Source of the DNA: Candidatus Daviesbacteria bacterium
GTDB taxonomy: Bacteria; Patescibacteriota; Microgenomatia; Daviesbacterales; UBA10151
Length of the DNA stretch: 33,416 bases
Reading direction: 5' to 3'
NCBI GenBank assembly: GCA_016184225.1
Contig: JACPDA010000004.1
Coordinates: 736,316 to 769,731, forward strand
The notes under the pieces were generated by a model that was not told where the DNA came from, did no database searches, and saw nothing but the letters and a program-made list of their open reading frames with translations. Both the position numbers and the translations under genes were made by a program. This document shows positions 2,057 to 19,646 of the stretch, piece after piece. The first letter of the stretch is position 1; the number at the start of each line of letters is the position of its first letter.

Positions 2057-4606
2057 ATGAGTAACATTGGCAAAATCCAACCAGCACCTATTATCGAAGA
2101 AATGCAAAAGTCGTACCTCGACTATGCCATGTCAGTTATTGTTTCCCGGGCCCTGCCGGATGTCCGTGACGGACTAAAACCGGTCCAGAGGAGGATTATT
2201 TATGCCATGCACCAACAGGGCCTGCACCACACTTCCCGTTTCCAAAAATCGGCCGCTGTGGTCGGAGAAGTCTTAAAAAACTTCCATCCTCACGGCGACG
2301 CCCCGGTTTATGAAGCCATGGTCAGGATGGCTCAAAACTTTTCCATGAGATATATGCTGGTAGACGGCCAGGGAAACTTTGGCTCAATTGACGGGGATTC
2401 CCCTGCTGCCATGAGGTATACCGAAGCCAGGCTTTCTGCCATCTCCGAAGAACTGCTGCGGGACATCAACAAAAACACGGTTGAATTTATAGACAATTAT
2501 TCCGGCACTACCCAGGAACCGGTATTGCTGCCATCTGTTATACCAGATCTGCTCTTAAACGGCGCCTCCGGTATCGCCGTGGGCATGGCCACCCAAATCC
2601 CGCCTCATAATTTAGGGGAGGTCTGTGATGCATTGGTTTACATGATAGAACACCCAACGAAAGAGTCTAGAGTCAAGAGTCAAGAGTCAAGTGAAGAAAA
2701 TTCTAGACTCTCGACTCTAGCGACTAGTCACTCTTTCCAATCTGATGCTACTGTTGAAGACCTGATTCAATTTGTCAAAGGCCCGGATTTTCCAACAGGC
2801 GCTTCCATTTACGACCAAACCGAAATCCTGGCCGCTTATGGAACCGGAAAAGGCCGGATTGTCATGCGGGCCAAAGCAGAGATAGATGAAACCCCACAGG
2901 GAAAAATGCAGATTATTGTTTCAGAGCTGCCTTACCAGGTTAACAAGGCTACCCTGATTGCCAGAATTGCCGAGCTGGTCAAAGACAAAAAATTGGACGG
3001 CATTGCCGACCTTAGGGATGAATCAGACCGTAAACAAATGGTCAGGATTGTTTTTGACTTAAAAAGAGACGGAAAACCCCAAGCCATTTTAAACAATCTC
3101 TACAAACACACTGCCATGCAATCGGTTTTTAATGTTAATTTAGTCGCCCTCTCAGACGGCGTTCCGCATCTTTTAACCCTAAAGCGCATCCTGGAAGAAT
3201 TTATCCACCACCGGCAGGTAGTTGTCCGGAAACGTTCGGAATTTGAACTGGCAGAAGCAAAAGCCCGCGAGCATATTTTAGAAGGCCTGAAAATTGCCGT
3301 TGATAATATCGATGCGGTTATTGAAACCATTAAGAAATCCAAAGACGCCGATGCTGCCAAAGTGAATTTGATGGCTAAATTCAAACTAACCGAGATCCAG
3401 GCCCTGGCCATCCTGGACATGCAGCTGAGACGTTTGGCTGCGCTGGAACGGCAAAAAATTGAAGATGAGCTGAAGATGGTCCGGGAAACCATTACTTATC
3501 TGGAAGATTTGCTGAGTCATCCGGAGAAAATCTTAAAAGTTATCAAAGGAGAACTGGAAAAAATTAAGGAAAAATACGGCGATGACAGAAGAACCCGGGT
3601 TTATAAACAAAAAATAGGGGAGTTTAATGAGGAAGACTTAGTGCCGAATGAGGTGACCATTGCCACCATCACTGAAGGCGGCTATGTCAAGCGTCAATCG
3701 CCCATGTCTTTTAGGACCCAACAACGGGGTGGTAAAGGCGTCATGGGTATCTCCACCAAAGAAACCGATGCTGTGTCTCACATTTTCTATACCCAAACCC
3801 ACGACAGCATCCTCTTTTTTACTGACAAGGGCAGAGTTTTTCAAATCAAGGTTTGGGAAATTCCGGAAACACAGCGTGCTGCCAAAGGCCAGGCGATTGT
3901 TAATTTAATTAATGTGGAACAAGGAGAAAAAGTGACGGCTGTCCTGACCACCCGCCAAAAAGGGGAAAGCACTCAGTTTTTCTTCATGTGTACCCAAAAG
4001 GGTACTGTCAAAAAAACTTCCCTGACCGAATATGCCAATATCAGAAAAAGTGGTTTGGTGGCAATTAAGCTGGATTCCGGAGATGAACTAGGGTGGGTGG
4101 CTGCTACCTCCGGCAAAGACGACCTGATTATTGTCTCAAGAGCCGGCAAATCAATCCGCTTCTCTGAAACCCAGGTTAAGCCAACCCACCGGGACACCTC
4201 CGGGGTAAGAGGCATCAGACTTAGCAAAGATGACGAAGTAGTCTCATTAAATATTGTCCAAAAAGATGCCCAGCTTCTGGTAATCATGGAAAACGGTTTG
4301 GGCAAAAAGACTGAATTCTCAGCCTGGAGCAGGCAGGGCCGGGGAGGGCAGGGGGTTAAAGCTGCCCAGGTGACAGCCAAAACCGGGCAAATTGTGACAG
4401 CCCAGGCAATTGATGGCAAAATGGATACCTTGGTATTAACTTCCACCAAAGGACAACTAATCAAAATGGGTCTGGCGGAAGTACCGACACTGCAACGCCA
4501 AACTCAGGGAGTCATTTTAATGCGTGTTAGGCCGGGAGAAAAAGTAGTAGCAGCAACTGTTGTAGCGTCTAAAGAAAAAACCGAACAGGCAAAATCTAAA
4601 GTATGA
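2057..4606 (+). CDS. gyrA: DNA gyrase subunit A
   Basis: Breakage-reunion subunit of the type IIA topoisomerase that introduces negative supercoils with GyrB. Clear features: [20 protein letters not shown] near the N-terminus, HPHGD, the active-site tyrosine in [10 protein letters not shown] (Tyr121), PDFPTG, a coiled-coil tower region, and a C-terminal beta-pinwheel. The GyrA-box-like QQRGGKG at residues 555-561 argues for GyrA over ParC. 849 residues is a normal length. Residues about 203-226 are read from a heptad-repeat insertion (2662-2734) and give a Ser-rich stretch with RVKSQES before the conserved [15 protein letters not shown]. The stop overlaps the next gene as ATGA. Confidence 0.97.
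2662..2734. repeat. Heptad-repeat hairpin inserted in gyrA
   Basis: Left arm AGAGTCT, AGAGTCA, AGAGTCA, AGAGTCA (2662-2689), an A-rich loop, then right arm AGACTCT, CGACTCT, AGCGACT, AGTCACT (2705-2732). The arms are imperfect reverse complements. The element is read without a stop and adds about 25 residues to GyrA. Same sequence family as 10690-10760 and 21287-21324. Confidence 0.85.
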
Positions 4607-4812
4607 AAAAATCTGCTTGGATTTCAACCATTGGAGTCATCTACTTTATGGCCGGGTTTATCTTTGCCATAGCTTTTGCTATCTATTACCGCTGGCCTTA
4701 TCTTTCTTTTCTATCCCCGGGATTTTATAGTGTGATTTTAACCTGGCCCTTCCAGGCAATCGGCCTTGTAAGAGACCTCCTAATCTACGGCCTCGCCGGC
4801 AAGCCAATATAG
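4603..4812 (+). CDS. Small membrane protein, unknown function
   Basis: 69 residues with two likely membrane segments (about 8-28 and 35-60) and several aromatic residues. The start overlaps the gyrA stop as ATGA, so it is probably co-translated with gyrase. I do not recognise a family. The tight coupling and a plausible membrane protein composition support a real gene. Confidence 0.65.
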
Positions 4813-4825
4813 AACCACCCTATAG

Positions 4826-4854
4826 TTGACTTTATGTCGTTAGTATGGTAGATT
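4826..4854 (+). promoter_or_regulatory. Sigma70-type promoter, leaderless mRNA likely
   Basis: TTGACT (4826-4831), a 17-nt spacer and TAGATT (4849-4854). Only 7 nt separate the -10 box from the ATG at 4862, so transcription should begin at or next to the start codon. Confidence 0.65.
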
Positions 4855-4861
4855 ACACTCC

Positions 4862-5257
4862 ATGGCTGGACAACCTGAAAGAAATCTTGCTGAACAAGAC
4901 CAAATCTTTTATGCACTCCAAAAGATAGCAGATGCCGAATTAATAGCTAATAGGGATCATAAAGATTATACCCAGGGATATCATAACAGACCTAGATTCG
5001 ATGCTATTGAACTCTTAGATACAGCATTAGAAGTATTAAGACCTCTTGGAGGTGTCGAGATTCCTACAGCCAGAGCGCTTGAGGTATATGGAGATGTGGT
5101 ACCTGAGGTTGTTGGAAGTCAAAGACTACTTGAACCCTTAGAGTATTATCTGAAAGCTCTTAGTGTTCTTAAGACTGCTCCTGATCTAGCAGCGGTGACA
5201 GATCCTATCATTAGAATTACTCAAAAGATCAATAGAAAACCTACCCCAAATCCTTAA
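4862..5257 (+). CDS. Hypothetical helical protein
   Basis: 131 residues, soluble and mostly helical by composition, with no signal peptide or membrane segment. The segment FDAIELLDTALEVLRPLGG and the later LLEPLEYYLKALSVLKTAP have the spacing of TPR-like helix pairs, but no TPR consensus is clear. I do not recognise a family. It has its own promoter 7 nt upstream of the ATG and lies just before the TrpR-like regulator, with no overlap. A partner role is possible but not shown. Confidence 0.6.
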   Translation: MAGQPERNLAEQDQIFYALQKIADAELIANRDHKDYTQGYHNRPRFDAIELLDTALEVLRPLGGVEIPTARALEVYGDVVPEVVGSQRLLEPLEYYLKALSVLKTAPDLAAVTDPIIRITQKINRKPTPNP

Positions 5258-8750: not shown

Positions 8751-9301
8751 GAAATTAAGTTAATCGGTAAAACTATCAGCAGGATCCCGGCAGTGTTTAA
8801 TATGTAAGTTAAGAAGGCGATTTCCTGATACCTGAGCTTCGATACGCCCAACATCATCAAACCTAACTCATCCGGAAAAGGGGAAGCCACAATAATAGCT
8901 CCTATAAGCGGCACAATAAAATCCAGATGGAGCAATTGCAAAAGCTTATTAATCTGTAAAAGCCGCAGCGGTCCGGAAACCAAATGCAAATTTGATGATA
9001 ATTCTTTTCTAAAAAAACGGACCATGAATAAATCTGCTGAGGCTGCACCGAGCCCTGCCAGTAAAGCAGTGATAATCGGATTATTATCCTGAGCCAAAAC
9101 TATCAGCATGGCTACCGAAATAGGGGAAGTTAAAAATGAAGTATATAAAACACCGGCCAGGATTTGTGAAAGTATTCTAAAAGGCAAAACCGTATCAATT
9201 AACCCCTGTAAGTATCCGGCTTTAACTAGCCACCAGGCAAGACTTAAGGATAAAATAAAAACACCGGTTCTTAAAATCAGTTTCTTTAGCTTTGGGTCCA
9301 T
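8747..9301 (-). CDS. Integral membrane protein, operon partner of the Ca2+ ATPase
   Basis: 184 residues with about five membrane segments. Glycine- and Pro-containing loops such as PLIGAIIVASPFPDELGLMMLG are reminiscent of DedA/TVP38 (VTT) proteins, but the similarity is too weak for a firm call. The ATPase start overlaps its stop (ATGA), so it is probably co-expressed. An extended -10 (TG C TAAACT, 9308-9316 on the complement) ends 6 nt before the ATG, predicting a nearly leaderless mRNA. Function unknown. Confidence 0.7.
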   Translation of the reverse strand: MDPKLKKLILRTGVFILSLSLAWWLVKAGYLQGLIDTVLPFRILSQILAGVLYTSFLTSPISVAMLIVLAQDNNPIITALLAGLGAASADLFMVRFFRKELSSNLHLVSGPLRLLQINKLLQLLHLDFIVPLIGAIIVASPFPDELGLMMLGVSKLRYQEIAFLTYILNTAGILLIVLPINLIS

Positions 9302-9307
9302 TATTTC

Positions 9308-9355
9308 AGTTTAGCAGAAACATTGACCCCGATCCAATCGAGATCGGGGTTGACA
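9308..9355. promoter_or_regulatory. Divergent promoters sharing a palindrome
   Basis: A perfect inverted repeat, ACCCCGATC (9326-9334), 7 nt, GATCGGGGT (9342-9350), lies between divergent genes. Leftward: TTGGAT (9332-9337) and TAAACT (9308-9313), 18 nt apart, for the 9301 gene. Rightward: TTGACA (9350-9355) with a poorly spaced TATAAA (9376-9381). The palindrome overlaps both -35 boxes, as an operator would. Confidence 0.5.
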
Positions 9356-9402
9356 TATTCAAAAAAATGCTTCAATATAAATTAGAGGGGAGGTGAGTAA
9401 CT

Positions 9403-9759
9403 TTGCAAATTATTATAGCCTTGGTCCTAAACGCACTAGCCCTTATTGTCACAGCCTACATTGTTCCTGGAATCCAGGTAGTTGATTTCACAACAGCTTT
9501 ACTGGCTGCAATAGTCTTGGGAGTGGTTAATACTTTCATAAAACCAATTCTCAGCTTTATAACAGCACCTTTAACAATAGTCACACTGGGTCTTTTTACC
9601 TTTGTGATAAACGCTGTGGTCTTATTTATAGTTTCGGCAGTGGTGCCGGGAGTAACGATTGCCGGCTGGACACCGGCAATACTGGGGGCAATTGTCTTAT
9701 CAATTGTCTCAACAGTCCTAAATTCCATGCTTAAGGATTTGGGTAAGCTGAAGAAATAA
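9403..9759 (+). CDS. YvlD-like membrane protein (phage holin family 4 type)
   Basis: 118 residues with four membrane segments in two similar halves (VTAYIVPGIQVVDFTTALLAAIVLGVVNTFIKPIL and VSAVVPGVTIAGWTPAILGAIVLSIVSTVLNSML). This is the layout of the small membrane family named after phage holins (PF04020) and seen in chromosomal YvlD; most members are not proven holins. The start is TTG at 9403, chosen because a strong Shine-Dalgarno (GGGGAGGTGA) ends about 7 nt upstream, one of few good ones here. Convergent with the recombinase gene, 8 nt apart. Confidence 0.85.
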   Translation: MQIIIALVLNALALIVTAYIVPGIQVVDFTTALLAAIVLGVVNTFIKPILSFITAPLTIVTLGLFTFVINAVVLFIVSAVVPGVTIAGWTPAILGAIVLSIVSTVLNSMLKDLGKLKK

Positions 9760-9767
9760 CAGGAATG

Positions 9768-10685
9768 TTATTTATTACCCGAGTGAAACGCCTTATGCAC
9801 GTCTTTTAGGTGGGCATTGGTGACGTGAGTATAGATTTGGGTGGTGGCAATGTTTGAATGGCCCAGCATCTCCTGAACCGAGCGGATATCAGCACCATTG
9901 ATCAGTAAATCCGTGGCAAAGGAGTGGCGCAAGGTATGAGGAGTAGCTTTAACAGAAAGACCTAAGACTTTGACATATTTTTCTACAATCCGCTCAATCG
10001 ATCGGGGGGTCAACCTCATAGCTTCACCATTATCTGTAGGATCTACCTTCCCCTGAAACCGCACAAAAAGGGGCTTGAAAGTGTCTTTCCGAGCTGTTAA
10101 ATATTTACCCAGCCACTCAGAGGCCGAATCGGAGAGAAACACAATCCGCTCCTTTTGTCCTTTGCCTACAATAGAAAATTCCCGCCGGCTTAAATTAATG
10201 CTATCCCGGTTTAAAGAAGCTGCCTCAGAAACCCGCAGTCCCGTAGAAAAAAGCAGTTCCAAAATAGCCTTATCCCGCATGCCGCCTTTTATAGAAACAT
10301 CAGGAGCTTCCAGTAAGTTCTTTAAGGCCGTTTCATCCAAAACCTTAAGCGGCCTGGCCTCTGCTTCACCCAGCTCCACTTTCTCCGGAGATAAAGTTTC
10401 TATATCCACTCGGGCCAGGTAGCGAAGAAATGCCCTAAGCGCTATCATAAAGTAATTCTGGGTGATCCTTTTCAAAGGCTTGTTATGTTTAGGATCTGTC
10501 CACCTGGATAAATACAACCTGTACTTTCTGACTAAATTTAAATCTATGTCTTTAGGGTTAATATCTTTGGCAAATTCCAGAAATCGTTTTAGGTAGTGGT
10601 CATAATTGCGGATGGTCAGTTGTGAAGCGTTACGTTCCAGTTCCAGGTATTCCAGAAAATCAGTGATAAGAGCAGATAAAGTCAT
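9768..10685 (-). CDS. Tyrosine recombinase, XerC/XerD type
   Basis: 305 residues, the usual Xer size. The N-terminal SAM-like core-binding domain (FLEYLELERNASQLTIRNYDHYLKRFLEFA) is followed by the catalytic domain with TGLRVSE (Arg151), a VGKGQKE hairpin Lys, HTLRHSFAT (His250, Arg253), GH (His276) and the nucleophile in TTQIYTH (Tyr285). This is probably the housekeeping enzyme that resolves chromosome dimers at dif, since the second recombinase at 17794 is more divergent and sits in a candidate mobile element. A heptad-repeat hairpin lies immediately upstream of its start. Confidence 0.92.
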   Translation of the reverse strand: MTLSALITDFLEYLELERNASQLTIRNYDHYLKRFLEFAKDINPKDIDLNLVRKYRLYLSRWTDPKHNKPLKRITQNYFMIALRAFLRYLARVDIETLSPEKVELGEAEARPLKVLDETALKNLLEAPDVSIKGGMRDKAILELLFSTGLRVSEAASLNRDSINLSRREFSIVGKGQKERIVFLSDSASEWLGKYLTARKDTFKPLFVRFQGKVDPTDNGEAMRLTPRSIERIVEKYVKVLGLSVKATPHTLRHSFATDLLINGADIRSVQEMLGHSNIATTQIYTHVTNAHLKDVHKAFHSGNK

Positions 10686-10689
10686 AGTT

Positions 10690-10760
10690 AGAGTCTAGTC
10701 GCTAGAATCTAGAGTCTAGGAATTTTAAGTCTAGACTCTTGACTCTCGACTCTAGCCACT
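10690..10760. repeat. Intergenic heptad-repeat hairpin
   Basis: Left arm AGAGTCT, AGTCGCT, AGAATCT, AGAGTCT (10690-10717), loop near GAATTTTA, right arm AGACTCT, TGACTCT, CGACTCT, AGCCACT (10733-10760). Four 7-nt units per arm. It shares AGTCGCT and NGACTCT units with the gyrA and yebC copies. It fills nearly all the space between the Xer gene and the cohesin-like gene. Confidence 0.85.
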
Positions 10761-11542
10761 TAAAGTAGTGCCAGTCCTAAAATTCCCAAGATGGTTAAAA
10801 CCGATCCAATAATAGCTAGCGTAAGGGTAAGCTCCTTCGTCCCTCCCTCCGGTAAGCTCTTAAGCGGGACATAAGTTGTAGGCGGATTATAGGCAGAAGG
10901 GGTAGACACATAACCTGCTCCTTGCCCTCCGGTATTTGGCATGACCACAAATCCAGATCCGGGAGATGTTCCTGCTTGGGTCGGAGCCGCGCTGGCAACC
11001 GGCTGGGCGCCACAGACCCCGGTCCCTATAACAAAGCTGCCGTTTAATACCGAATCCAGCATATCCACAACTACCCCTCCCACTACCCCAGAAACATTGG
11101 AATCACGGGTTTCATCCTTTTTTTGGGGATTAAAGTCAAAGCTAATTTGGGTTGTCCCCGTAGCAGCACTGTTTGGAACCGTAAAATTTATACCGGCAAA
11201 GACACCTGAACCGGTAAAAGGCGAACCCACGGAAGCGATGGCAGAAATGGCAATCCTGCCGGTAGCGCTGTCTATATTATTTATCGGATAATCGGGAAAA
11301 ATTGTGCCTTTGGTAATGGAATTGGCAGTCAACCTGGAGGAATCATAAATAATAATGGCATCAACTCCCTCGGTGGCAGCTCCGCCTGTTTTAAGTTGGA
11401 TATTTAGGGAAAAACTGCATCCTCTGTTAAAAGTGCCGTTGGCCGGATCCAGCTCCAAGGAAGTGGTCTGGGCCAACACCCCGGCAGGAAAGAAAAGAGC
11501 AAAAAGGCTAAGGATCAAGAGTAGGGCAAGAAACTTTTTCAT
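10760..11542 (-). CDS. Exported cohesin-domain protein with C-terminal membrane anchor
   Basis: 260 residues. Signal peptide at 1-24 (MKKFLALLLILSLFALFFPA, ending VLAQ), then a cohesin-like beta-sandwich at about 28-170: SLELDPANGTFNRGCSFSLNI, VDAIIIYDSSRLTA, IFPDYPINNIDSATGRIAISAI, GSGVFAGINFTVPNSAATG. The rest is a Pro/Ser/Gly-rich linker and a C-terminal hydrophobic helix after LPEGG. That tail loosely recalls a sortase signal but lacks the basic end, so simple membrane anchoring is likelier. Its start overlaps the next cohesin gene by 4 nt. It probably displays a cohesin on the cell surface. Confidence 0.8.
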   Translation of the reverse strand: MKKFLALLLILSLFALFFPAGVLAQTTSLELDPANGTFNRGCSFSLNIQLKTGGAATEGVDAIIIYDSSRLTANSITKGTIFPDYPINNIDSATGRIAISAIASVGSPFTGSGVFAGINFTVPNSAATGTTQISFDFNPQKKDETRDSNVSGVVGGVVVDMLDSVLNGSFVIGTGVCGAQPVASAAPTQAGTSPGSGFVVMPNTGGQGAGYVSTPSAYNPPTTYVPLKSLPEGGTKELTLTLAIIGSVLTILGILGLALL

Positions 11543-12141
11543 TCGATTGTAATTTCCAAATTATCAACTTCTTCTAAAATGTTTTTGGATGTATTTGCCT
11601 CCACTAAATTAGAGGCTGTAGTGGTATCTTTCTCAAAGTTAATTGTCAAAGATGTATTTGCAGTCTGTTTAGCTTTGAAATTCAGAGTGGCAAATTCACC
11701 TTTACCCGCAAAACCGCCGCCTAAGCTGCTGATCCCGGAGATGGAAACTAAACCGCTGCCGGAATCCACAGACATCAGCGGATATTCATCCAGGATGTTA
11801 CCCTTGCTTAACCCTGCTTTGGTAATTTCCAAAATTTCCGGGTCATACCGGACTATCAAATCAACTCCGGAAATGGTCTTCAAACCACTGTCGAGTATGA
11901 CGGAAACAGGTATTAAATCACCGACCTGAAAGCTTTGTTGAGGGGCAGTTAAAGAAATCCTTGCTGTTGACCGCTCCGTAGTCCCAGCAACAGGTGGGGA
12001 AGTGGTGCCGGATTTGGGAAACAGGGTCCATCCGGCATAAATTATCTCTACAACCAGCACCACCCCTAAAACAATAAAAATAATTTTAAGGACTGAAAAC
12101 TTCTTCGGCAGATTATCTGTTGTTACATTAAAATTATCCAT
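11539..12141 (-). CDS. Membrane-anchored cohesin-domain protein
   Basis: 200 residues: a short cytoplasmic start, one membrane helix (about 18-42), a Ser/Thr/Pro linker and a cohesin-like domain (about 60-198). The domain shows ISLTAPQQSFQVGDLIPVSVIL, ISGVDLIVRYDPEILEI, GNILDEYPLMSVDSGSGLVSISG and GKGEFATLNFKAK, the usual order of cohesin strands. It overlaps the downstream cohesin gene by 4 nt and follows the dockerin-ended giant 42 nt away, so receptor and ligand are encoded together. Its upstream region carries TATATTTTGTACTACA (12143-12158), a degenerate relative of the 14-bp repeat at 17232. Confidence 0.82.
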   Translation of the reverse strand: MDNFNVTTDNLPKKFSVLKIIFIVLGVVLVVEIIYAGWTLFPKSGTTSPPVAGTTERSTARISLTAPQQSFQVGDLIPVSVILDSGLKTISGVDLIVRYDPEILEITKAGLSKGNILDEYPLMSVDSGSGLVSISGISSLGGGFAGKGEFATLNFKAKQTANTSLTINFEKDTTTASNLVEANTSKNILEEVDNLEITIE

Positions 12142-12183
12142 ATATATTTTGTACTACAATCAACAACTTTTTGCCACCCTGCA

Positions 12184-15100
12184 TTACGTTCCTGGTGATG
12201 CACTTGGGCTGGGACTGGCAGTTGGACTGGCAGAAGGGGAAGAGGTGGGACGGGGGGAGATCACCTGAGGTAACCCCGGAACTGCTTCCGGATCGCCGCT
12301 GCGGCCATTGGCATCTTTCATAGAAAAGCTCATACAGGCCCAGTCTATAGAATTAACCCGGCTGTCCTGGTTAAAATCCCCAGACCTACCTTTGGCATCA
12401 CCGGAAACAATCCATTGTCGGTTTAGTTCTGCTTTATCCGCACCATTGATTAATCCGTCTCCGCCATCTGCCGGGAAAATATCTCCCACCCACAGAACAA
12501 AATCAGAGAGATTAGTAGTCCCTGGTCCTGCAGTAAAGGTGGTGGTTTTTCTTAAGGCTTTCGGGGCTTTAATTGACAGGTTGTATTGCCTGCCTTCTTC
12601 CAACCTTTGGGTGATACCCTGAACCACACCATCTTTATCAATGCTGACTTTCTCTCTGACCAGCCGGCCGCTCGGGATGGCTTCTGCCAAAGTCAAATTC
12701 ACATTATCTGTCTGGTGCAAAGAAGGCTGCCGGCAGAAAACCCTGGCTCCTAGAGCTAGCTGAGAAAGAGAACTGCAGCTAACATCAACACTTTGCCCGT
12801 CTGCAGTTGTCAGAACAACATTCAGGTTTTGCCCGATGGGAGCGCTTGGCCAATCAACTTGTACATTATTATCACTCCACTGCCTAATTCGCCGGGCAGT
12901 AGTACCGGTGGCAGCTGTTCCTTGAGTCGACCCAAAGTTTCTCCCGCTAATATTCAAAATAGCCATGCTTCCATCTGTTCCTAAGGAACAGTTTCTTTTT
13001 TCAGGGGCATCTCCTAAAAGCCTGATTTGGATGTTGCGCTGCTCTATCTTACCCTTGGAATCTCTAAACTCCACCCAGATAAACTTTGGCCCGGCAGTTT
13101 TATCTTTAAATTCAAAATTGTCAATCCTAGTCGGCTCAGCTGTATAAGGTTGCCATCCTTTGTTTGGATCAGCAACAAAATCAGCCCGTGTTTCGGTAAT
13201 CCTGAAATCCGTTGTCACCACCGGAGCCGGGCTGGGGGAGGGGGAAGGTGAAGGTGAAGGGCTGGGTGGAGCCAGCAGTTCTATTTGGGCACTAACCGTT
13301 TCTTTCTCATCAGTGGTAGTATCCCAAAACTGGACAAAGATAGTTTTTGTACCGGGATCAATATTCCTAAATGTATAGTTACGCAGTGTTCCTGGGCCGG
13401 TGTAATCCTCCCAAACCGCTGAATCCAGATTTAAGCTATTTTCTTCAGCCACCCTAAATCTTATCTTAGAAGTCGGATTCTCTGAAACAATTCTCAAGGC
13501 TTTACTACAATTTGCATTAGATAGCGATGACAATCCAAATTGGTCAATAAAGTAACCGTTGACCTGCATATTGACTGGTTTCTTGTTGCCCCAATTTAAA
13601 TCCGGCTTATCAAAATCAGTAAAGTTAAAAACAGAAGCCAGGCTTTTTGCGCCAGAGCCGGCCGGCTTGTCAATTACCAAGGGAGACCCGCCGTTTGGAC
13701 ACTGGCGCGCTGTTTCCGCTGCATCAACTACAGAGACAATCCCTTGTTGGCAAATAATCTTGGTGTCATTATCCCGATTGTAAAAAGCGTAGCGGAAATT
13801 AGCCAGCTTTGCTTCACTGGCAGTAGAGGTAATTGTTACTTGACCCCCTACAGGAACTATATCAGAGGAAACAACTGTCGAAACGCACAAATCCCGCCTG
13901 ACCGGGGTCGAAGGATTAGATGGCCCGCCAGTCCCTGGACCCGGATTAGGCAGGCTGCCGCCACAAGAGGTTGCACAAACGCCGGTCTTTAATTCATTGC
14001 ACTGCCTGGCCGCTTCCGCACCAAAGCCGTTACACCACTTATTCAATATCTTCTGGTCACTACAGCCACTGTAGTTACTGGTTCCCTTTTTGATGATAGA
14101 GATGACACTTGGAACATTAGTGGGGGAGGTTTTAGTACTCAAACAGGCTGCACAAGTGGGACCTAAATCCGGGGACTGGTCATCAATATTACTACAAGTT
14201 CCGGTATCGCCACCAACACCGCCTCCGGTACCTGTATGCTGCAGTTGAATACAACGGTTGCCTTCGGTAAATTCATAACACCAATTGCTGGTGGAAGCTC
14301 TAACGTTAGAAGGATCAGAAGTGTTTTGTGGACAAACGGCATGGGCAGCAGCAGCATCAGCACCGCCGCAGGCATTATTTGCCCCAAACCTGGCAGTATC
14401 TATTGCCGGCGCGCCTCCTGTACCGGGCGGGATTAATACCCACTTATAAGATGAGTTCGGAACCGGGGCGCATTTTTCGCAAGTCGGTGGTGTGGTGTTT
14501 TGGGAAACCTTACAAACAGTCCCATCACTGCACTTGGAAGAAACGCTTCCGCCAGCCGGCGTCCCTCCGGTTGGCGTACCTCCCGCAGGAGGAGCAACTC
14601 CAACATTGCCGGGTGTTCCCCCGGAAGGAACACAATTATTACTACAGTAATCCTGACCACCAAAGTTACATTCATACTTGGTCCAGTTCGTACCGCCGGA
14701 ACATGAACCGTTAGTTACACCTACAGTACACTCAAAAAATCCTGCCTCTTCACAATAATTGTTGCCACCACCGGATGTTATAGTACCCGGTTGCGGCCCA
14801 CCAGAACTACTGTTTGATATACAATTTCCTTGACCATCACAGATCTTCCCGTCTCCACAAAAAGTGCCTTCACTAAAATTATTTCCCCAGACACCCCTGC
14901 AGGGATTAGAAGTATCACCAGTTGTTGACCTACAATTTCCCTGACCGTCACATATCTGTCCATCTCCACAAAAAGTGCCTGCCCTAGTAGGATTACCTTC
15001 CGTATCCGTACAGGACACAGTTTGGGCAGGTGTACCTCCGCTGGCTATACAATTTCCTAGCCCATCGCACTCCCCTCCATCCCCACAGGGAGTACCTCTG

Positions 15101-15330
15101 GCAATATTATTATAAGGAGAAGGGCCTTCACCAACACAGTCGTTAGGAAAACTGTCACCTCCTGGTGCATTATTGGGTGGTGCATTATTGGTTTGAGCTG
15201 CCCTGGATTTTAATATCTGCTGCTGCTGGACTAGCTTCACAGTCACCGGAATGGCTAAAATCAAAATTCCTATTAATATAATCTTTACTAAAGTACTCAT
15301 CACAAATCCTTTTTCTCCCAGTACTTTCAT
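12184..15330 (-). CDS. Large surface protein with Cys-rich repeats and C-terminal dockerin
   Basis: 1048 residues. N-terminal helix (about 14-33) followed by QQQQILKSRAA, the anchor motif shared with two neighbours. Next come Cys-rich units of the form G(T)xCGDGxxCDGxGNC (at least three), more Cys-rich sequence, beta domains split by a Ser-Pro linker, an IPT-like stretch (ILNISGRNFGSTQG), and near the end a dockerin-like pair: DGGDGLINGADKAEL and DFNQDSRVNSIDWACM, both with the DxNxD-type Ca loop. A Pro/Ser tail follows. ATG 15330 gives a pilin-like KGF start; ATG 15300 (residue 11) has a better Shine-Dalgarno (AAAGGA) and is an alternative. Confidence 0.85.
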   Translation of the reverse strand: MKVLGEKGFVMSTLVKIILIGILILAIPVTVKLVQQQQILKSRAAQTNNAPPNNAPGGDSFPNDCVGEGPSPYNNIARGTPCGDGGECDGLGNCIASGGTPAQTVSCTDTEGNPTRAGTFCGDGQICDGQGNCRSTTGDTSNPCRGVWGNNFSEGTFCGDGKICDGQGNCISNSSSGGPQPGTITSGGGNNYCEEAGFFECTVGVTNGSCSGGTNWTKYECNFGGQDYCSNNCVPSGGTPGNVGVAPPAGGTPTGGTPAGGSVSSKCSDGTVCKVSQNTTPPTCEKCAPVPNSSYKWVLIPPGTGGAPAIDTARFGANNACGGADAAAAHAVCPQNTSDPSNVRASTSNWCYEFTEGNRCIQLQHTGTGGGVGGDTGTCSNIDDQSPDLGPTCAACLSTKTSPTNVPSVISIIKKGTSNYSGCSDQKILNKWCNGFGAEAARQCNELKTGVCATSCGGSLPNPGPGTGGPSNPSTPVRRDLCVSTVVSSDIVPVGGQVTITSTASEAKLANFRYAFYNRDNDTKIICQQGIVSVVDAAETARQCPNGGSPLVIDKPAGSGAKSLASVFNFTDFDKPDLNWGNKKPVNMQVNGYFIDQFGLSSLSNANCSKALRIVSENPTSKIRFRVAEENSLNLDSAVWEDYTGPGTLRNYTFRNIDPGTKTIFVQFWDTTTDEKETVSAQIELLAPPSPSPSPSPSPSPAPVVTTDFRITETRADFVADPNKGWQPYTAEPTRIDNFEFKDKTAGPKFIWVEFRDSKGKIEQRNIQIRLLGDAPEKRNCSLGTDGSMAILNISGRNFGSTQGTAATGTTARRIRQWSDNNVQVDWPSAPIGQNLNVVLTTADGQSVDVSCSSLSQLALGARVFCRQPSLHQTDNVNLTLAEAIPSGRLVREKVSIDKDGVVQGITQRLEEGRQYNLSIKAPKALRKTTTFTAGPGTTNLSDFVLWVGDIFPADGGDGLINGADKAELNRQWIVSGDAKGRSGDFNQDSRVNSIDWACMSFSMKDANGRSGDPEAVPGLPQVISPRPTSSPSASPTASPSPSASPGT

Positions 15331-15332
15331 TA

Positions 15333-15656
15333 TTACTTATACCTACTTTCTTCAGACAGATTAGTGCCGTTCCCGAACATCGCTCCCCAGCCGGTAGAGC
15401 TGTCAAAGTTCCAATATTTGCCATAAGCAGTAATGGATTCAGTCTTCTTACCGTCTTTTACTAACATAGTTCTGCTGTCAAAAGTGCAGGTAGTTTGACC
15501 GCTACAGGGCCCACTAGCATATCTATCTACAGAAGTTAAACTAGAGCCACTCCCGGACATTACTTCCCATCCGCCGCTGGTTGGACTCCTGAAATTCCAG
15601 TATCTGCCATAAGCTGTAATAGATTCAATCCTTGAACCATCAGTTTCATAATACAT
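15333..15656 (-). CDS. Tandem-repeat surface protein, last segment after a frame break
   Basis: 107 residues in a third frame. It encodes the repeat ESITAYGRYWNFRSP, MSGSGSSLTSVDRYASGPC, CTFDSRTML, ESITAYGKYWNFD, then the stop. Upstream the frame meets TAG right at the junction 15665/15666, so ATG 15656 is an artefact of the break and not a natural start. I read it as the C-terminal end of the gene that starts at 16893. The dockerin gene begins 2 nt after its stop, so the order of an intact operon is preserved. The repeat family is not recognised; it looks like a secreted Trp/Tyr-rich beta repeat. Confidence 0.6.
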   Translation of the reverse strand: MYYETDGSRIESITAYGRYWNFRSPTSGGWEVMSGSGSSLTSVDRYASGPCSGQTTCTFDSRTMLVKDGKKTESITAYGKYWNFDSSTGWGAMFGNGTNLSEESRYK

Positions 15657-16012
15657 GGTTCTGGTCTACAGGGCCCACTAGCATATCTATCTACAGAAGT
15701 TAAACTAGAGCCACTCCCGGACATGGCAGCCCAACCATTGGCACCATCAAAATTCCAGTATTTACCATTAGCAGTGATCGTTTCAATTCTTTTTCCGTCT
15801 GACTGAACAAACATATTCCTGGTATCAAAAGTGCAGATAGATTGACCACTGCATGGGCCATTGGCATAACGGGGAATAGTAGTCAGGTAATCACCGCTTT
15901 TCTCCAGTGTAATCCATCCGCCGCTGGTTGGACTCCTGAAATTCCAGTATCTGCCATAAGCTGTAATAGATTCAATCCTTGAACCATCAGTTTCATAATA
16001 CATGGTTCTGGT
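15502..16012. repeat. Interleaved long direct repeats in the surface gene
   Basis: A 99-bp block is identical at 15567-15665 and 15914-16012 (offset 347). A 59-bp block is identical at 15502-15560 and 15666-15724 (offset 164). The junction 15665/15666 is exactly where one block ends and the other begins, and it is also where the frame breaks. This is the signature of recombination between repeats, or of a short-read assembly jump. Confidence 0.9.
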
Positions 16013-16018
16013 GTACAA
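15560..16018 (-). CDS. Tandem-repeat surface protein, middle segment in a shifted frame
   Basis: Meaningful coding runs from about 16022 to 15666: TRTMYYETDGSRIESITAYG, RYANGPCSGQSICTFDTRNM, ETITANGKYWNFDGANGWAA, SLTSVDRYASGPC. After 15666 this frame reads out-of-phase sequence and stops. It is linked to the preceding segment by adding one C to the 7-C run (16023-16029, G on the given strand), and to the following segment by restoring about 25 nt lost at 15665/15666. The TTG at 16018 is not convincing as a start. Probably part of one broken gene. Confidence 0.5.
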   Translation of the reverse strand: MYTRTMYYETDGSRIESITAYGRYWNFRSPTSGGWITLEKSGDYLTTIPRYANGPCSGQSICTFDTRNMFVQSDGKRIETITANGKYWNFDGANGWAAMSGSGSSLTSVDRYASGPCRPEPCIMKLMVQGLNLLQLMADTGISGVQPAADGK

Positions 16019-16893
16019 GGCAGGGGGGGATTAACTGTTACCGCAACACTAACTCTGGCTGAGTTAGCTGCTCCGCCTACGCCTTCACAGCGCATATTAT
16101 AAGTGGTTGTCTCCGTCGGAGAAAACGTATCTGAACCCGAGGCATCTACAGTTTTAAAGACTCCCGGGGGATTGAGAATACATTTCACGGCATTTGTACT
16201 TGACCAGGTCAGCGTTGTTGATTGACCTGCAGTAATAGTAGTTGGACTGGCAGTAAATGAAACAGTGGGTGTAGCAGGAGCTACTTGCCTGGTACAGGTA
16301 AAGGAACCCTCTGCCGCGCCGGTACTGCAACCTGAGGCATTACAGGCAAAAACAAACCACTGGTAAGTAGCTCCGGGGATCCTGCCGGTTAAAGATTTAG
16401 AGGTAGAAGTCAGCGGTTCACAGAAATTAGGCGGGGTACAAGCATTTCCCCCGGACTCTGTCGATCCCCAGACCAACGCCGGATCAGCAGTATTGTGGAC
16501 ATACAAATCATAGCGGGTGGCACCGCTAACACCTGTCCAGCTAAACTTAGCCGCAGTCCCGGGATCAGGACAAGATGCAGAGGGATTGGTAGGGGTAGAG
16601 GGGACTGAAGCGGGCGGTGTAGGGGTTGGGGTATTCCCGGAACCTAATCTGGAAGTAAGTTTCAAGGTAATCGGCTGGTCTGCCCTTAAAGCTACCCAGC
16701 TGTTTCCCCTTCGCTCAACATTATTTCCGCTGAATTCAATCGGCTCGCCGGCAGCCCGGGACTTAAAGATTTGCTGTTGGGTAATCAAAAATATGCCCAC
16801 AGGAAGGGTTAAAACCAACACTGCTAATATAATAAGGTTTCTCTTGTTTTGGAAAAATTCCGAATTTCTTAAATTATCTAAAAATTCTCTCAT
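15883..16893 (-). CDS. Surface protein with FN3- and Ig-like domains, frameshifted C-terminus
   Basis: 336 residues as read; true coding in this frame ends near 16023. A membrane helix (about 19-38) and QQQIFKSRAAGEPI form the N-terminal anchor. A Pro/Thr linker follows, then a fibronectin-III-like domain (AKFSWTGVSGATRYDLYVHN, ATYQWFVFAC) and an Ig-like domain (VSFTASPTTITAGQSTTLTW, TTTYNMRCEGVGG, SVAVTVNPP). The last 45 residues (PEPCIMKL onward) are the Trp-repeat DNA read in the wrong frame. One extra C in the 7-C run would join it to the repeat segment as VNPPPALYTRTMYYE. The start overlaps the upstream gene stop by 4 nt. Confidence 0.75.
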   Translation of the reverse strand: MREFLDNLRNSEFFQNKRNLIILAVLVLTLPVGIFLITQQQIFKSRAAGEPIEFSGNNVERRGNSWVALRADQPITLKLTSRLGSGNTPTPTPPASVPSTPTNPSASCPDPGTAAKFSWTGVSGATRYDLYVHNTADPALVWGSTESGGNACTPPNFCEPLTSTSKSLTGRIPGATYQWFVFACNASGCSTGAAEGSFTCTRQVAPATPTVSFTASPTTITAGQSTTLTWSSTNAVKCILNPPGVFKTVDASGSDTFSPTETTTYNMRCEGVGGAANSARVSVAVTVNPPLPCTPEPCIMKLMVQGLNLLQLMADTGISGVQPAADGLHWRKAVIT

Positions 16894-17171
16894 TCATTAG
16901 CTCCTTTAGGCGGACCCAAAGGAGAAGTAAGCTCTATGGAAATTTTGGCATCTTTCCTGGCTACCCATTCTAAAGTTCCGTCCGGCTTAGTTTTTTGAAA
17001 TACATCTTTTGTCTCTTGGATTACAATTGGTTCTCCGGCAGCCCGGGATTTAAAAATTTGCTGCTGCTTGATTAAATTTATGCCTAAAGGAACTGCCAAA
17101 ATTAGTATCCCTAATATAAGTAGGGTAATAAGGGTTTTTTTCTGTTTAAAAAGTTCTGAAAATTCTCCCAT
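16890..17171 (-). CDS. Short anchor protein with QQQIFKSRAA motif
   Basis: 93 residues: a basic start, a membrane helix (about 13-34), then QQQIFKSRAAGEPI and a short external tail (DVFQKTKPDGTLEWVARKDA). Residues 36-48 are identical to the matching stretch of the next protein (QQQIFKSRAAGEP), so one probably arose from the other by duplication. It overlaps the next start by 4 nt and is the first gene of the surface operon. TTGACA (complement, 17217-17222) lies upstream, but no -10 box at good spacing is seen. Function beyond anchoring unknown. Confidence 0.7.
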   Translation of the reverse strand: MGEFSELFKQKKTLITLLILGILILAVPLGINLIKQQQIFKSRAAGEPIVIQETKDVFQKTKPDGTLEWVARKDAKISIELTSPLGPPKGANE

Positions 17172-17231
17172 CGGAAAAGGGCTCTTCCTCTATACTTTCA
17201 CCTTTTGATATAGTTTGTCAATAGTAAAGAA

Positions 17232-17245
17232 TATATTGTACGACA
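17232..17245. repeat. Left 14-bp direct repeat (attL-like)
   Basis: TATATTGTACGACA, identical to 19297-19310. The following base completes TTGT ACG ACAA, a small inverted repeat. It lies 61 nt upstream of the first surface gene (17171), so a role in that promoter region is an alternative. Confidence 0.65.
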
Positions 17246-17254
17246 AACGGGATT

Positions 17255-17797
17255 TCAGGTTAATCGTAGCTTAGCATTTTCCCGATTTAGAAACTCCTGT
17301 TTATACTTGATATATTTAAAAAAGCGTGGTTTAGCTACAAACAGAAAAACCTGCACGTCAGCTGAATGAGGATAAGGCAAGATCAGCATCTTTTCTGCAG
17401 TGGGAAGAATAAGGTATTTTTCAAGTTTTAAAGCATTTGTATCTCCGCATTCAGCTGGAAATCGTAAGTCCTTATCAATAACATCTACCTTAAAACCTAT
17501 CAGTGGATACTCATAACGAATATCTTGATCAGATATATTACAATTCTGGATTAGAAAATCTCTAGCAAATGATTTTAAAGCTAGATGGCCGTAACTTTCA
17601 CCGCTTTTAACGAGTCCGCTTTCAGGGTCTTTTACTATATCTATTTTCCTGATAAATTCATCTTTTGAGGCAATTGTTTTGGCAGACACAGTAAATAACC
17701 CTTCCTGATACATCCAGGTAATCTCATCTATATTCGCCCAATCAATATTCGGACTAAAATTACTGTAAAAGATCTTTAAGAAATCTTCACTTGTCAT
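17255..17797 (-). CDS. PD-(D/E)XK nuclease-like protein paired with a recombinase
   Basis: 180 residues, no signal peptide. The helix GHLALKSFARDFLI (about 70-83) is followed by YEYPLIGFKVDVIDKDLRFPAECGDTNALKLEKYL. Asp105, the Glu of AECG (Glu116) and Lys124 fit the PD-(D/E)XK fold, where families with VDV...(A/V)ECGxTxxxKL are known; the Lys of a strict ExK is replaced by Gly118. Activity is therefore uncertain. Its ATG overlaps the stop of the recombinase by 4 nt, so both are made from one transcript and may act in one process such as site cleavage, element control or defence. Not recognised beyond the fold level. Confidence 0.65.
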   Translation of the reverse strand: MTSEDFLKIFYSNFSPNIDWANIDEITWMYQEGLFTVSAKTIASKDEFIRKIDIVKDPESGLVKSGESYGHLALKSFARDFLIQNCNISDQDIRYEYPLIGFKVDVIDKDLRFPAECGDTNALKLEKYLILPTAEKMLILPYPHSADVQVFLFVAKPRFFKYIKYKQEFLNRENAKLRLT

Positions 17798-18798
17798 TTA
17801 GATTTTTCTGCTAAAGGATGATACTTCCGGTGAGTTTCCTGAGCAAATTTATCTGACGCGTTAATATACCTTGTTGTTGTGTTAAGAGATTCATGCCCAA
17901 GCAAAATCTGAACTGCAGCTGGAGAAGCCCCTTCTTCTGTTAAATAAGTTGCAAAACCATGCCTCAAAGAATGAGCACTGGTAGGAATATTAATTCTTAA
18001 TTTTTCCCTATATCTTTTAATCCTTTCTTGAAGGTAATTAGTTGAAATCCGTCTTTGGGATTTTGTTATATTTTTACCTTTAGTCGGTACAAATAGCGCT
18101 TGTTGTGTATCGTTTCTAAAGCTAAGATACTGTTCTAAGTAGGCCTGTGCCCGTTCGGTCAGATATACAAACCTTTGTTTTCGTCCTTTGCCAGTGATAA
18201 AAATCCGACCGCTACCATCTATATCCCTCCTGTTCAGGTTAAGCAGCTCGGAAATCCTCATTCCAGTTGCAAATAATATTTCAAGCATAGCTCTATTCCT
18301 GCTAGATATTTCTGGGTCTTTTTCCAAAGTAGAAGGAGCTTCAATTAAAGAAATTAATTCATTAAGTTCTGCAATATTGGCATGCGGACGCTCTCTTTTA
18401 ACCATCTTAAACTGATCAGGTACAACAGGACAATCATATTCCTGGTCAATAAGAAAAAGGATATAAGCTCGAACTGCTGACAAGCACCTATTGATACTTG
18501 CGGATGAGAGCCGCACACTCGCTTCTTGTCGATTTGTAGGAGTCTCCCGCTCATCAGATGAGAGATAAGCCTTAAATTCAAAAATTAATCTCTTATTCAT
18601 ATCTTTTATATAAATATTTCTGGATTTCAGAAAATTATCGAAGTGGAGTAAATCCTTTTTATAGTTATAGATTGTTTCAGGGGAGTAATTGTTGGTTTGA
18701 AGGAAAAGAAAGAAGTCATCAATCAAATCTAAATTAGTATAACGAGTATAAGACTGATCATTTTTTTTATTTTGAGCCTTGGGCGAGCGTGAGTCCAT
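17794..18798 (-). CDS. Tyrosine recombinase/integrase of the candidate element
   Basis: 334 residues from ATG 18798 (343 from ATG 18825). In 343-residue numbering: core-binding domain about 30-130, then TGMRISE (Arg190), TGKGRKQR (Lys213), HSLRHGFAT (His285, Arg288), GH (His311) and nucleophile TTTRYIN (Tyr320). All catalytic residues are present. I prefer the 18798 start because the best -10 (TATTAT, 18824-18829, complement) overlaps the 18825 ATG, which would then not be transcribed. An 8-bp inverted repeat between that -10 and the start suggests autoregulation. It differs from the Xer gene at 9768 and overlaps a nuclease-like gene, as an element integrase might. Confidence 0.88.
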   Translation of the reverse strand: MDSRSPKAQNKKNDQSYTRYTNLDLIDDFFLFLQTNNYSPETIYNYKKDLLHFDNFLKSRNIYIKDMNKRLIFEFKAYLSSDERETPTNRQEASVRLSSASINRCLSAVRAYILFLIDQEYDCPVVPDQFKMVKRERPHANIAELNELISLIEAPSTLEKDPEISSRNRAMLEILFATGMRISELLNLNRRDIDGSGRIFITGKGRKQRFVYLTERAQAYLEQYLSFRNDTQQALFVPTKGKNITKSQRRISTNYLQERIKRYREKLRINIPTSAHSLRHGFATYLTEEGASPAAVQILLGHESLNTTTRYINASDKFAQETHRKYHPLAEKSK

Positions 18799-18801
18799 AC
18801 T

Positions 18802-18853
18802 GAGTATAAGGTTGATTATACTCATAATAATAGGTTCAGGCAGGCTTTGTCAA
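18802..18853 (-). promoter_or_regulatory. Recombinase promoter with operator-like inverted repeat
   Basis: On the complement: TTGACA (18848-18853), 18-nt spacer, TATTAT (18824-18829). Just downstream, GAGTATAA (18802-18809) and TTATACTC (18816-18823) form a perfect 8-bp inverted repeat with a 6-nt centre, covering the expected transcription start. Confidence 0.55.
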
Positions 18854-18861
18854 GCATCTAA

Positions 18862-18890
18862 TTGAGTCTAAGCTTACGATAAGCTAGGTA
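18862..18890 (+). promoter_or_regulatory. Promoter-like site reading into the gene-free stretch
   Basis: TTGAGT (18862-18867), a 17-nt spacer and TAGGTA (18885-18890). The spacer holds the inverted repeat AGCTTA CGA TAAGCT (18871-18885). It would start an RNA near 18897, divergent from the recombinase. Confidence 0.35.
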
Positions 18891-18994
18891 AACTATTAGG
18901 ATTTCCATTGCTTGCTGAGAAGCAACCTGTGCGAAGAATAAACAAAAGTCTAACAAAGAAAGCATACTACACAAACAAGGAAGCGTACCTAAAA

Positions 18995-19043
18995 CGCTGT
19001 CTATACTAGCTATTTTCAGCTCTTTTAAGGCTAGTTAGACACG
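18995..19043. other. Long imperfect hairpin with two single-base bulges
   Basis: CG, bulge C, TGTCTA, bulge T, ACTAGC (18995-19010) pairs with GCTAGTTAGACACG (19030-19043): 14 base pairs, a 19-nt loop, both bulges on the left arm. GTTAGAC (19034-19040) fits the GTTRRRY consensus of integron attC sites, and extrahelical bases on one arm are also an attC trait. The paired RYYYAAC box is not in the stem, so an attC call is not justified. Confidence 0.7.
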
Positions 19044-19247
19044 AGGCCTTGGAAGGCCCCAAAAACGGCTTTCTAGGGGATAAGACGTAGGATAGGTCAT
19101 CTATAGTTTAGATTGTTACAGAAACCTAAACCTATGTGTTAAGTGGCAATAAATTGAAAAGGAAAAATGACAGAAAATTTAGACGGGAACTATTGTTTTT
19201 AAATTTAAATAATTTTTCTTTAATTCTTCTTAGTTTTACATCAGTTT

Positions 19248-19288
19248 GAAGTTCGCCTTAGCGACAAAGGCCACTTCTCCGATTTTTT
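19248..19288 (+). terminator. Rho-independent terminator
   Basis: GAAGT (19248-19252) pairs with ACTTC (19273-19277) and GCCTT (19255-19259) with AAGGC (19267-19271). The stem is followed by TCCGA and TTTTTT (19283-19288). There is no gene on this strand for several kb upstream, so it implies an untranslated transcript. Confidence 0.6.
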
Positions 19289-19296
19289 CCTGTTTC

Positions 19297-19310
19297 TATA
19301 TTGTACGACA
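19297..19310. repeat. Right 14-bp direct repeat (attR-like)
   Basis: TATATTGTACGACA, identical to 17232-17245. Together with its flanks it forms CTATATT, 13 nt, AATATAG (19296-19322), a 27-bp imperfect palindrome of the size of a dif or att core. Confidence 0.65.
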
Positions 19311-19349
19311 TCAATAATATAGGGAAGGATGACTAAAGAGAGAAATAAG

Positions 19350-19417
19350 GGATATTAGGATATTGGGATATTTATTAAGGATACAGGGTCTTTCTATATC
19401 GTAATATTCTTATATCC
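19350..19417. repeat. Heptad-like hairpin in gene-poor DNA
   Basis: Left arm (19350-19371) is built from GGATATT units. Right arm (19396-19417) is its imperfect reverse complement, with units CGATAT, AATATT and GGATAT when read on the other strand. The 24-nt loop is AT-rich. Same architecture as the other heptad hairpins, with a different unit. Confidence 0.65.
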
Positions 19418-19646
19418 ATACTCAAAGAGAGCGGCCCTCTTCTCTCCCTACCTTCGGGTATTATTTAGCAGTTATCCACAGAGCATGCCAGAAATAAGCA
19501 CATATAGGCCCCATAGTTTTCCACTTTCGTGCCTATTATCTATATCACACTATATCATCCGTAGTTTTCACGAAATATCCCATAATTTTTCACGAGCAGT
19601 ATTTTTTCTAACTTTTCCCTTTGCACTTTTCACTTTACACTTATCT
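19418..19646. other. Gene-free stretch with one DnaA-box match
   Basis: No gene seen. It holds one exact DnaA-box consensus TTATCCACA (19472-19480), a small TACC TTCG GGTA hairpin (19450-19461), and two TTTTCACGA copies 22 bp apart (19565-19573, 19587-19595). One box is too little to call an origin. Confidence 0.4.

Follow-up and report, generated by a model that had tools for sequence, protein, structure and literature searches.

How cells of the candidate phyla radiation (CPR), which are reduced in wall and membrane, hold large proteins at their surface is poorly known. A gene trio in a 33,416-nucleotide stretch of a Candidatus Daviesbacteria genome (contig JACPDA010000004.1; the whole stretch is called the window in the following) bears on this, and raises the question of what purpose cohesins and a dockerin that are encoded side by side serve in such a cell. 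The trio runs on the minus strand from window position 15330 to 10760 and consists, in the order of transcription, of open reading frames (ORFs) for a 1048-residue exported protein (12184-15330), termed the ligand here, a 200-residue protein (CohA, 11539-12141) and a 260-residue protein (CohB, 10760-11542); all window features described below lie on the same strand. An earlier interpretation of the letters alone, to which we refer as the sequence-only reading, had seen a dockerin ligand encoded beside two membrane-tied cohesin-like proteins, and the three ORFs are adjacent on the minus strand just as it had placed them. We consider it likely that the trio is the core of a non-cellulosomal cohesin-dockerin display system, in which cohesins in the membrane would hold dockerin-tagged exported proteins at the cell surface. 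The folds of the two partners, the conserved operon, the family co-occurrence of cohesins and dockerins and the exchange of a membrane segment for a dockerin in a pilO-linked protein, all obtained by computation, carry this reading, and the operon thus offers a compact and conserved candidate mechanism for the holding of surface proteins.

The ligand consists of a hydrophobic N-terminus, a cysteine-rich and beta-rich middle part, an X-module-dockerin dyad and a serine- and proline-rich tail. Its dockerin (residues 943-1015, 12286-12504), with two calcium-binding loop-helix repeats, is hardly visible to Pfam. Dockerin_1 (PF00404) matched residues 957-999 weakly (E 0.0031; 18.1 bits, cut-off 22.9), reached 23.0 bits, barely above the cut-off, in a search of the single genome, and gave no match on the 1048-residue protein when the dockerin proteins were scanned at E 0.001. 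This low score is probably explained by a four-residue insertion in loop 1, GDIFPADGGDGLINGAD, which is present in the window ligand and in most of 36 aligned segments from related proteins and is absent in the loci L069, L080 and L081. In the alignment of these 36 segments the calcium positions of dockerins are kept: D112 and D132 are invariant, and D97, D105, N109, N134, D136, N140 and D143 are conserved at a level of at least 90%. A profile of the X-dockerin family yielded 26 sequence matches in the PDB (best 3.7e-8), almost exclusively to dockerins, and its alignment to the X-dockerin of CipA, over profile positions 61-156, extends into the module that precedes the dockerin.

The structure of ligand residues 854-1016 (12283-12771) was modelled with AlphaFold2 (AF2). 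The model (predicted local distance difference test score, pLDDT, 93.3; predicted template modelling score, pTM, 0.85) shows an all-beta module and, after it, two helices. When the best 1000 Foldseek chains were aligned with VIA-align, the top eight were all type II X-dockerin chains with Z values of 13.2-14.3 (141-146 residues aligned); the first different fold came after them at a Z value of 8.8 (81 residues aligned). Because the family alignment, the profile matches to PDB dockerins and the match of the modelled fold over its whole length agree, we assign the calcium-loop pair as a true dockerin within an X-module-dockerin dyad that is followed by the Ser/Pro tail; a chance EF-hand is ruled out by the profile and fold matches. 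The sequence-only reading had made its case depend beforehand on the dockerin fold of this segment, and the fold was found. Its range for the dockerin, residues 945-1010, is also right, but it had missed the X module. This all-beta module, placed by the AF2 model, the structure comparison and the profile alignment at residues 854-948 with an approximate boundary (12487-12771), directly precedes the dockerin, as in the X-dockerin chains of type II complexes that it matched.

Cohesin (PF00963) was detected by Pfam both in CohA (4e-11, 43.7 bits against a cut-off of 24.1) and in CohB (1e-10, 42.4 bits, above the cut-off), where it occupies residues 59-200 (11542-11967) and 36-144 (11111-11437), respectively. 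The AF2 model of CohA (pLDDT 88.6) shows a helix at residues 15-40 and a beta sandwich that begins near residue 60. Its best structural match was 4uyq_A (Z 17.5, root-mean-square deviation 2.0, 132 residues aligned), and nearly all of the best 50 matches were cohesin modules, the clear exception being 9ifr at rank 48. A search of PDB sequences with the CohA profile retrieved cohesins of scaffoldin adaptor and anchoring proteins, several of them titled type II (best 3.8e-10); the best structural matches mix type I and type II, with the highest not being type II and Z values within about 3. CohA is, by its modelled fold, a cohesin, and we identify CohB as one on the basis of Pfam and of conserved cohesin-like motifs in its aligned orthologues. 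The beta domains in question are, in this sense, cohesins as had been proposed.

Their attachment to the membrane, likewise proposed before, agrees with a predicted helix in CohA and with two hydrophobic elements in CohB. In CohA the helix, residues 15-40 (12022-12099), is hydrophobic in sequence and would form an N-terminal signal anchor in front of the single cohesin. CohB has a signal peptide, a single cohesin, a linker, an LPEGG motif and a hydrophobic C-terminal segment at about residues 236-260 (10763-10837), the signal peptide and the C-terminal segment being read from the sequence. LPEGG is the window's form of an LPxx[GAS] motif found 31 residues before the C-terminus in 17 of 33 CohB proteins, most of which lack a charged tail. 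Because of this motif and of two sortase genes in the genome, CohB may be processed by sortase in some members; that cohesins stand in for an absent sortase is ruled out by the presence of these two genes. CohB-like proteins of relatives in the same class carry LPKTG (L083, 5929-6579) and LPATA (L080, 3794-4471) before a C-terminal hydrophobic segment, which suggests sortase anchoring of these proteins.

Since the cohesin proteins of the window have a single cohesin each and lack a dockerin, and since only one dockerin is present on the ligand, the anatomy is one of plug-and-socket anchoring and not of a polymer. With one module per protein, the self-assembling surface layer envisaged in the sequence-only reading is not borne out. 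Proteins with both a cohesin and a dockerin, from which chains are possible in principle, occur in a few relatives (L017, L117, L120 and L182). A related explanation, in which the ligand and the socket belong to different cells, or share a membrane via the N-terminal helix of the ligand, and glue cells together or build a lattice, could draw on such two-module proteins and on the N-termini of the X-dockerin proteins. When 29 of these were read by eye, 16, including that of the window, were found to keep a hydrophobic helix followed by Q..SRA or a similar sequence. We regard this explanation as unlikely, given that 12 of the 29 have an ordinary cleavable signal peptide, whose removal would release the mature protein unless a socket captured it, and that the exchange of an anchor for a dockerin described below points to attachment on the same cell. 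The SRA|A ending is, in addition, compatible with cleavage by signal peptidase. One N-terminus (L093) has an unclear start, and automatic sorting of the same 29 gave 15 and 7 with 7 left unsorted, differing from the reading by eye. In the window ligand the hydrophobic segment ends in ...LVQQQQILKSRAA. An N-terminus composed of a hydrophobic helix followed by LVxxQQxxKSRAA is typical of the lineage and occurs at window positions 12184-15330 and 15883-16893 and in many loci; a pattern of this type had 65 matches, some of them spurious, among the ORFs screened, and perhaps represents a signal peptide with a long c-region.

A comparison of gene order in relatives, which had been suggested as a check, showed that the plug and its two sockets form a conserved operon in the Daviesbacteria family. 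The count comprises 34 loci, namely the window and 33 of the 40 other cohesin-bearing loci of the family. CohA and CohB are neighbours in all 34, and in 29 of these pairs the computed gap is -3, corresponding in the window to an ATGA overlap of the CohA stop and the CohB start (11539-11542). An X-dockerin protein is encoded directly upstream of CohA in 32 loci, and one of the two that miss it, L092, ends at a contig edge. The constant downstream neighbour is an Xer-like tyrosine recombinase identified by Pfam (9768-10685 in the window), which adjoins CohB in 33 of the 34 loci, the sole miss (L088) again being at a contig edge. YebC, DUF5656, a holin-like gene, a P-type ATPase and gyrA recur as flanking genes in many of these loci. 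The named relatives of CohB come mostly from Candidatus Daviesbacteria, a lineage of the Microgenomates within the CPR. Within the family, 41 of 45 genomes have a cohesin and all 45 have a dockerin.

The whole genome to which the window belongs (942 kb, about 97% complete) contains, according to Pfam, only the two cohesins of the window and three dockerins. Besides the ligand, a 331-residue protein with an Fn3-like domain and a C-terminal dockerin is encoded at L105:9366-10361, where its gene follows pilN and pilO (PilN, PF05137, 3e-7; PilO, PF04350, 3.4e-7; both above the cut-off, with T2SSM_b scoring slightly better on PilO). According to profiles of this protein and of PilO, 85 of 95 relatives have a gene for the Fn3-type protein adjoining pilO; these are all 45 relatives from the family and 40 of the 50 from outside it. 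The best match of the 312-position profile of the pilus-linked protein reaches at least position 306, through the dockerin, in 42 of the 45 family genomes; in G011 (split) and G016 (contig end) the dockerin half appears as a separate match, and in G013 the match stops at 285. Outside the family, the match stops before the dockerin. All ten family members that were read end in a dockerin and have no C-terminal hydrophobic stretch. A dockerin was found in none of 22 pilO-linked orthologues read from other families of the class (20 scored, and L167 and L178 by eye), and 19 of the 20 scored proteins have a C-terminal stretch of 19 residues with a hydropathy above 1.6, the remaining one (L197) being tryptophan-rich with a value of 1.04. 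The C-terminal ends of L167 and L178 resemble those of the scored proteins, and two of the outside proteins contain one stray EF-like pattern each, far from the end and unpaired.

The simplest account suggested by these sequences is that, in the family, a dockerin replaced the membrane segment at the pilO locus; this direction is suggested by the membrane form being the more widespread one. Such a swap would be pointless unless the protein that receives the dockerin is anchored in the membrane, as CohA and CohB are predicted to be. A natural exchange of this kind at one orthologous locus indicates the purpose of the dockerin. A cohesin gene lies within about 5 kb of pilN-pilO in two other families of the class (L081 and L178).

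The third dockerin of the genome is encoded beside a GAPDH gene on a 4.5-kb contig, with its 5' end cut off. A dockerin protein in L106 (G000:C2, 3568-4473), truncated where its contig ends, has the same RYWNF-type repeat as a broken gene of the window that is described below, and the contig may break within this repeat. A conserved dockerin protein of about 290 residues with a C-terminal GYWxWxP motif is present in L108, L109, L111, L113, L115, L117 and L123; in several relatives its gene is located beside ribosomal genes and a flippase-like gene, and the X-dockerin profile aligns along the length of the protein. The genome of the window yielded no such protein.

The proteins that carry the dockerins also bear on whether the system might be a reduced cellulosome, that is, whether carbohydrate enzymes with dockerins are held at the surface by the cohesins, as excerpts of PMC9123182 propose for a metagenome-assembled genome of the Shapirobacterales. 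The module types are the same. In addition, in the class relative L081, a GH39-type gene (3783-5165; PF01229, 1.1e-33) stands in one row with X-dockerin and cohesin genes. From the family, 82 dockerin proteins were collected, two fragments were dropped and 80 were scanned at E 0.001. One of the 80 has a pectate-lyase-like beta helix and none matched a glycoside hydrolase family. No dockerin was found in the Pfam scan of the L081 GH39 protein, and the anchors of the window are single-cohesin proteins without a scaffoldin array, the two cohesin matches of the genome falling one per protein. We therefore judge a reduced cellulosome to be highly improbable. Pfam shows no glycosidase domain on any of the genome's three dockerin proteins, including the ligand, on which the sequence-only reading had seen none either. 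Its conclusion that the locus is not a cellulosome stands as well: we reject a cellulosome on the absence of glycoside hydrolase families from all 80 dockerin proteins together with the presence of just two single cohesins. The displayed regions are Fn3-like, TIG, lectin-like, Ig-like and cysteine-rich, and from their sequences they look like binding or structural modules and not like enzymes. The presence of cohesin and dockerin genes in a CPR genome should accordingly not be taken to mean a cellulosome.

In a sample of 285 genomes of the phylum, cohesin was detected in 87, dockerin in 111 and both in 59, as compared to 33.9 expected (Fisher p 8e-11, uncorrected for kinship). A dockerin lies at most 5 kb from a cohesin in 26 of 43 genomes with both, against a random expectation of 1.4; these 43 are the ones with a listed dockerin place, and the other 16 of the 59 were left out. 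A dockerin gene stands before rows of cohesin genes in several other families of the phylum, at loci partly chosen for having both.

Several observations weigh against a display system. Apart from the missing correction for kinship, the CohB profile had no match among PDB sequences at E 0.001, and the window ligand, with an N-terminal hydrophobic segment of uncertain cleavage, may be membrane-bound itself. The second dockerin repeat has VNSxDWACM as its conserved residues in the X-dockerins and VDQKDLDL in the pilus-linked dockerin, so that a given socket may not accept every plug. Of the 80 cohesin-bearing relatives outside the family, 10 have no dockerin at E 0.001, and at the same threshold nine relatives have a dockerin and no cohesin and six have neither. 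Within the family, four of the 45 genomes (G013, G024, G038 and G040) have dockerins and no cohesin detectable by Pfam or by the CohB profile. These are drafts of 83-92% completeness, in which the X-dockerin matches fall on ORFs of 300-344 residues or are weak and confined to the dockerin, and the whole operon may be absent from them as a block. The same four genomes speak for a coincidental pairing, in which the cohesin fold would have been reused for another ligand while the neighbouring dockerin binds something else. We hold this to be very unlikely in view of the conservation of the operon in 32 of 34 loci, of the co-occurrence and proximity across the phylum and of the agreement between the X-dockerin type and the kind of cohesin that the CohA sequence profile best matches; in solved complexes, as titled in the PDB, X-dockerin dyads are partners of type II cohesins.

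In the display system that we favour, CohA and CohB would be sockets in the cell membrane, each with one cohesin facing outside, and exported proteins with a dockerin, at the end or elsewhere, would plug into them and so stay on the cell surface. From the evidence given above we infer that CohA and CohB bind these dockerins, presumably in a calcium-dependent manner. The operon would supply its own principal ligand, the X-dockerin protein, which would share the sockets with dockerin proteins from other loci, chiefly that of the pilN-pilO operon. The displayed proteins might, as a guess that fits the lineage and the pilus link, be adhesins for a host or for surfaces; the host-attachment device considered in the sequence-only reading goes no further than this guess. 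A broader and more tentative idea, which we regard as possible and no further than that, is that this class of the CPR uses a general plug-and-socket surface, with a few shared membrane cohesins and with dockerins interchangeable with membrane anchors. In Daviesbacteria it would reach the base of the type IV pilus, with the pilus and the large variable surface protein on the same sockets and maybe in one attachment apparatus.

With respect to the surroundings of the trio, the gene upstream of the ligand (15333-16893) is split over three overlapping frames. It contains repeats of the type RIESITAYGRYWNF...GPC, whose row breaks off at places that lack part of a repeat, and includes two 108-nucleotide stretches that are 98% identical; it may be a pseudogene or the result of an assembly collapse. 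A second Xer-like recombinase with a 180-residue partner (17255-18825) is located beside a stretch of variable surface genes and occurs in some but not all related loci. A tandem-repeat scan of window positions 9500-19500 detected a single short array, and a promoter and terminator scan of positions 9300-17300 gave scores near the shuffle mean and no informative signal.

Overall, the arrangement can be compared with several known systems. Non-cellulosomal cohesins and dockerins are said to have been described by Peer et al. in 2009. According to excerpts of PMC9012536, anaerobic methanotrophic (ANME) archaea possess cohesins and dockerins without cellulose degradation, and CohA matches an Archaeoglobus cohesin (2xdh) at a Z value of 15.8; the ligand-socket-socket operon, the X module and the pilus-operon dockerin are features found here that are absent from those excerpts. 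Cohesins and dockerins of Microgenomates are already in print, since excerpts of PMC9123182 report the expression of type I/II cohesin and type III dockerin genes in Cand. Shapirobacterales and interpret them as a cellulosome; the wider lineage is shared, and the operon, the pilus link and the anchor exchange do not figure in these excerpts. In the CPR epibiont Southlakia epibionticum, the envelope dockerin protein SEML1_0315 is essential, and its authors, in excerpts of PMC10633639, suggest host glycans as its target. The word cohesin does not occur in the available text of that article, and our results provide a lead for the essential dockerin protein of this cultured organism. In the open-licence PMC literature on the CPR, Microgenomates and non-cellulosomal cohesin-dockerin systems, no description of the ligand-CohA-CohB operon or of a pilus-linked dockerin was found, and a search of the open-licence PMC literature for Daviesbacteria with a dockerin gave no match.

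Type II attachment in Clostridium thermocellum, with the SdbA cohesin and the CipA X-dockerin (PDB 2b59, 3kcp, 5g5d, 5m0y and 5k39), is a system in which likewise a surface-anchored cohesin holds a large exported protein via a C-terminal X-module-dockerin. The dyad of the window aligns to X-dockerins of this kind over 141-146 residues at Z values of 13-14, and CohA, whose best structural matches mix type I and type II, is not typable by fold alone. SdbA is anchored through SLH domains, whereas the predicted anchors in the window are transmembrane segments. The ligand further differs in having neither a cohesin array nor an enzyme and in the loop 1 insertion, and the genome encodes a mere two cohesins and three dockerins. 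By analogy, and with the kind of cohesin and dockerin assigned by fold, the Daviesbacteria system would work like type II cellulosome attachment minus the cellulosome.

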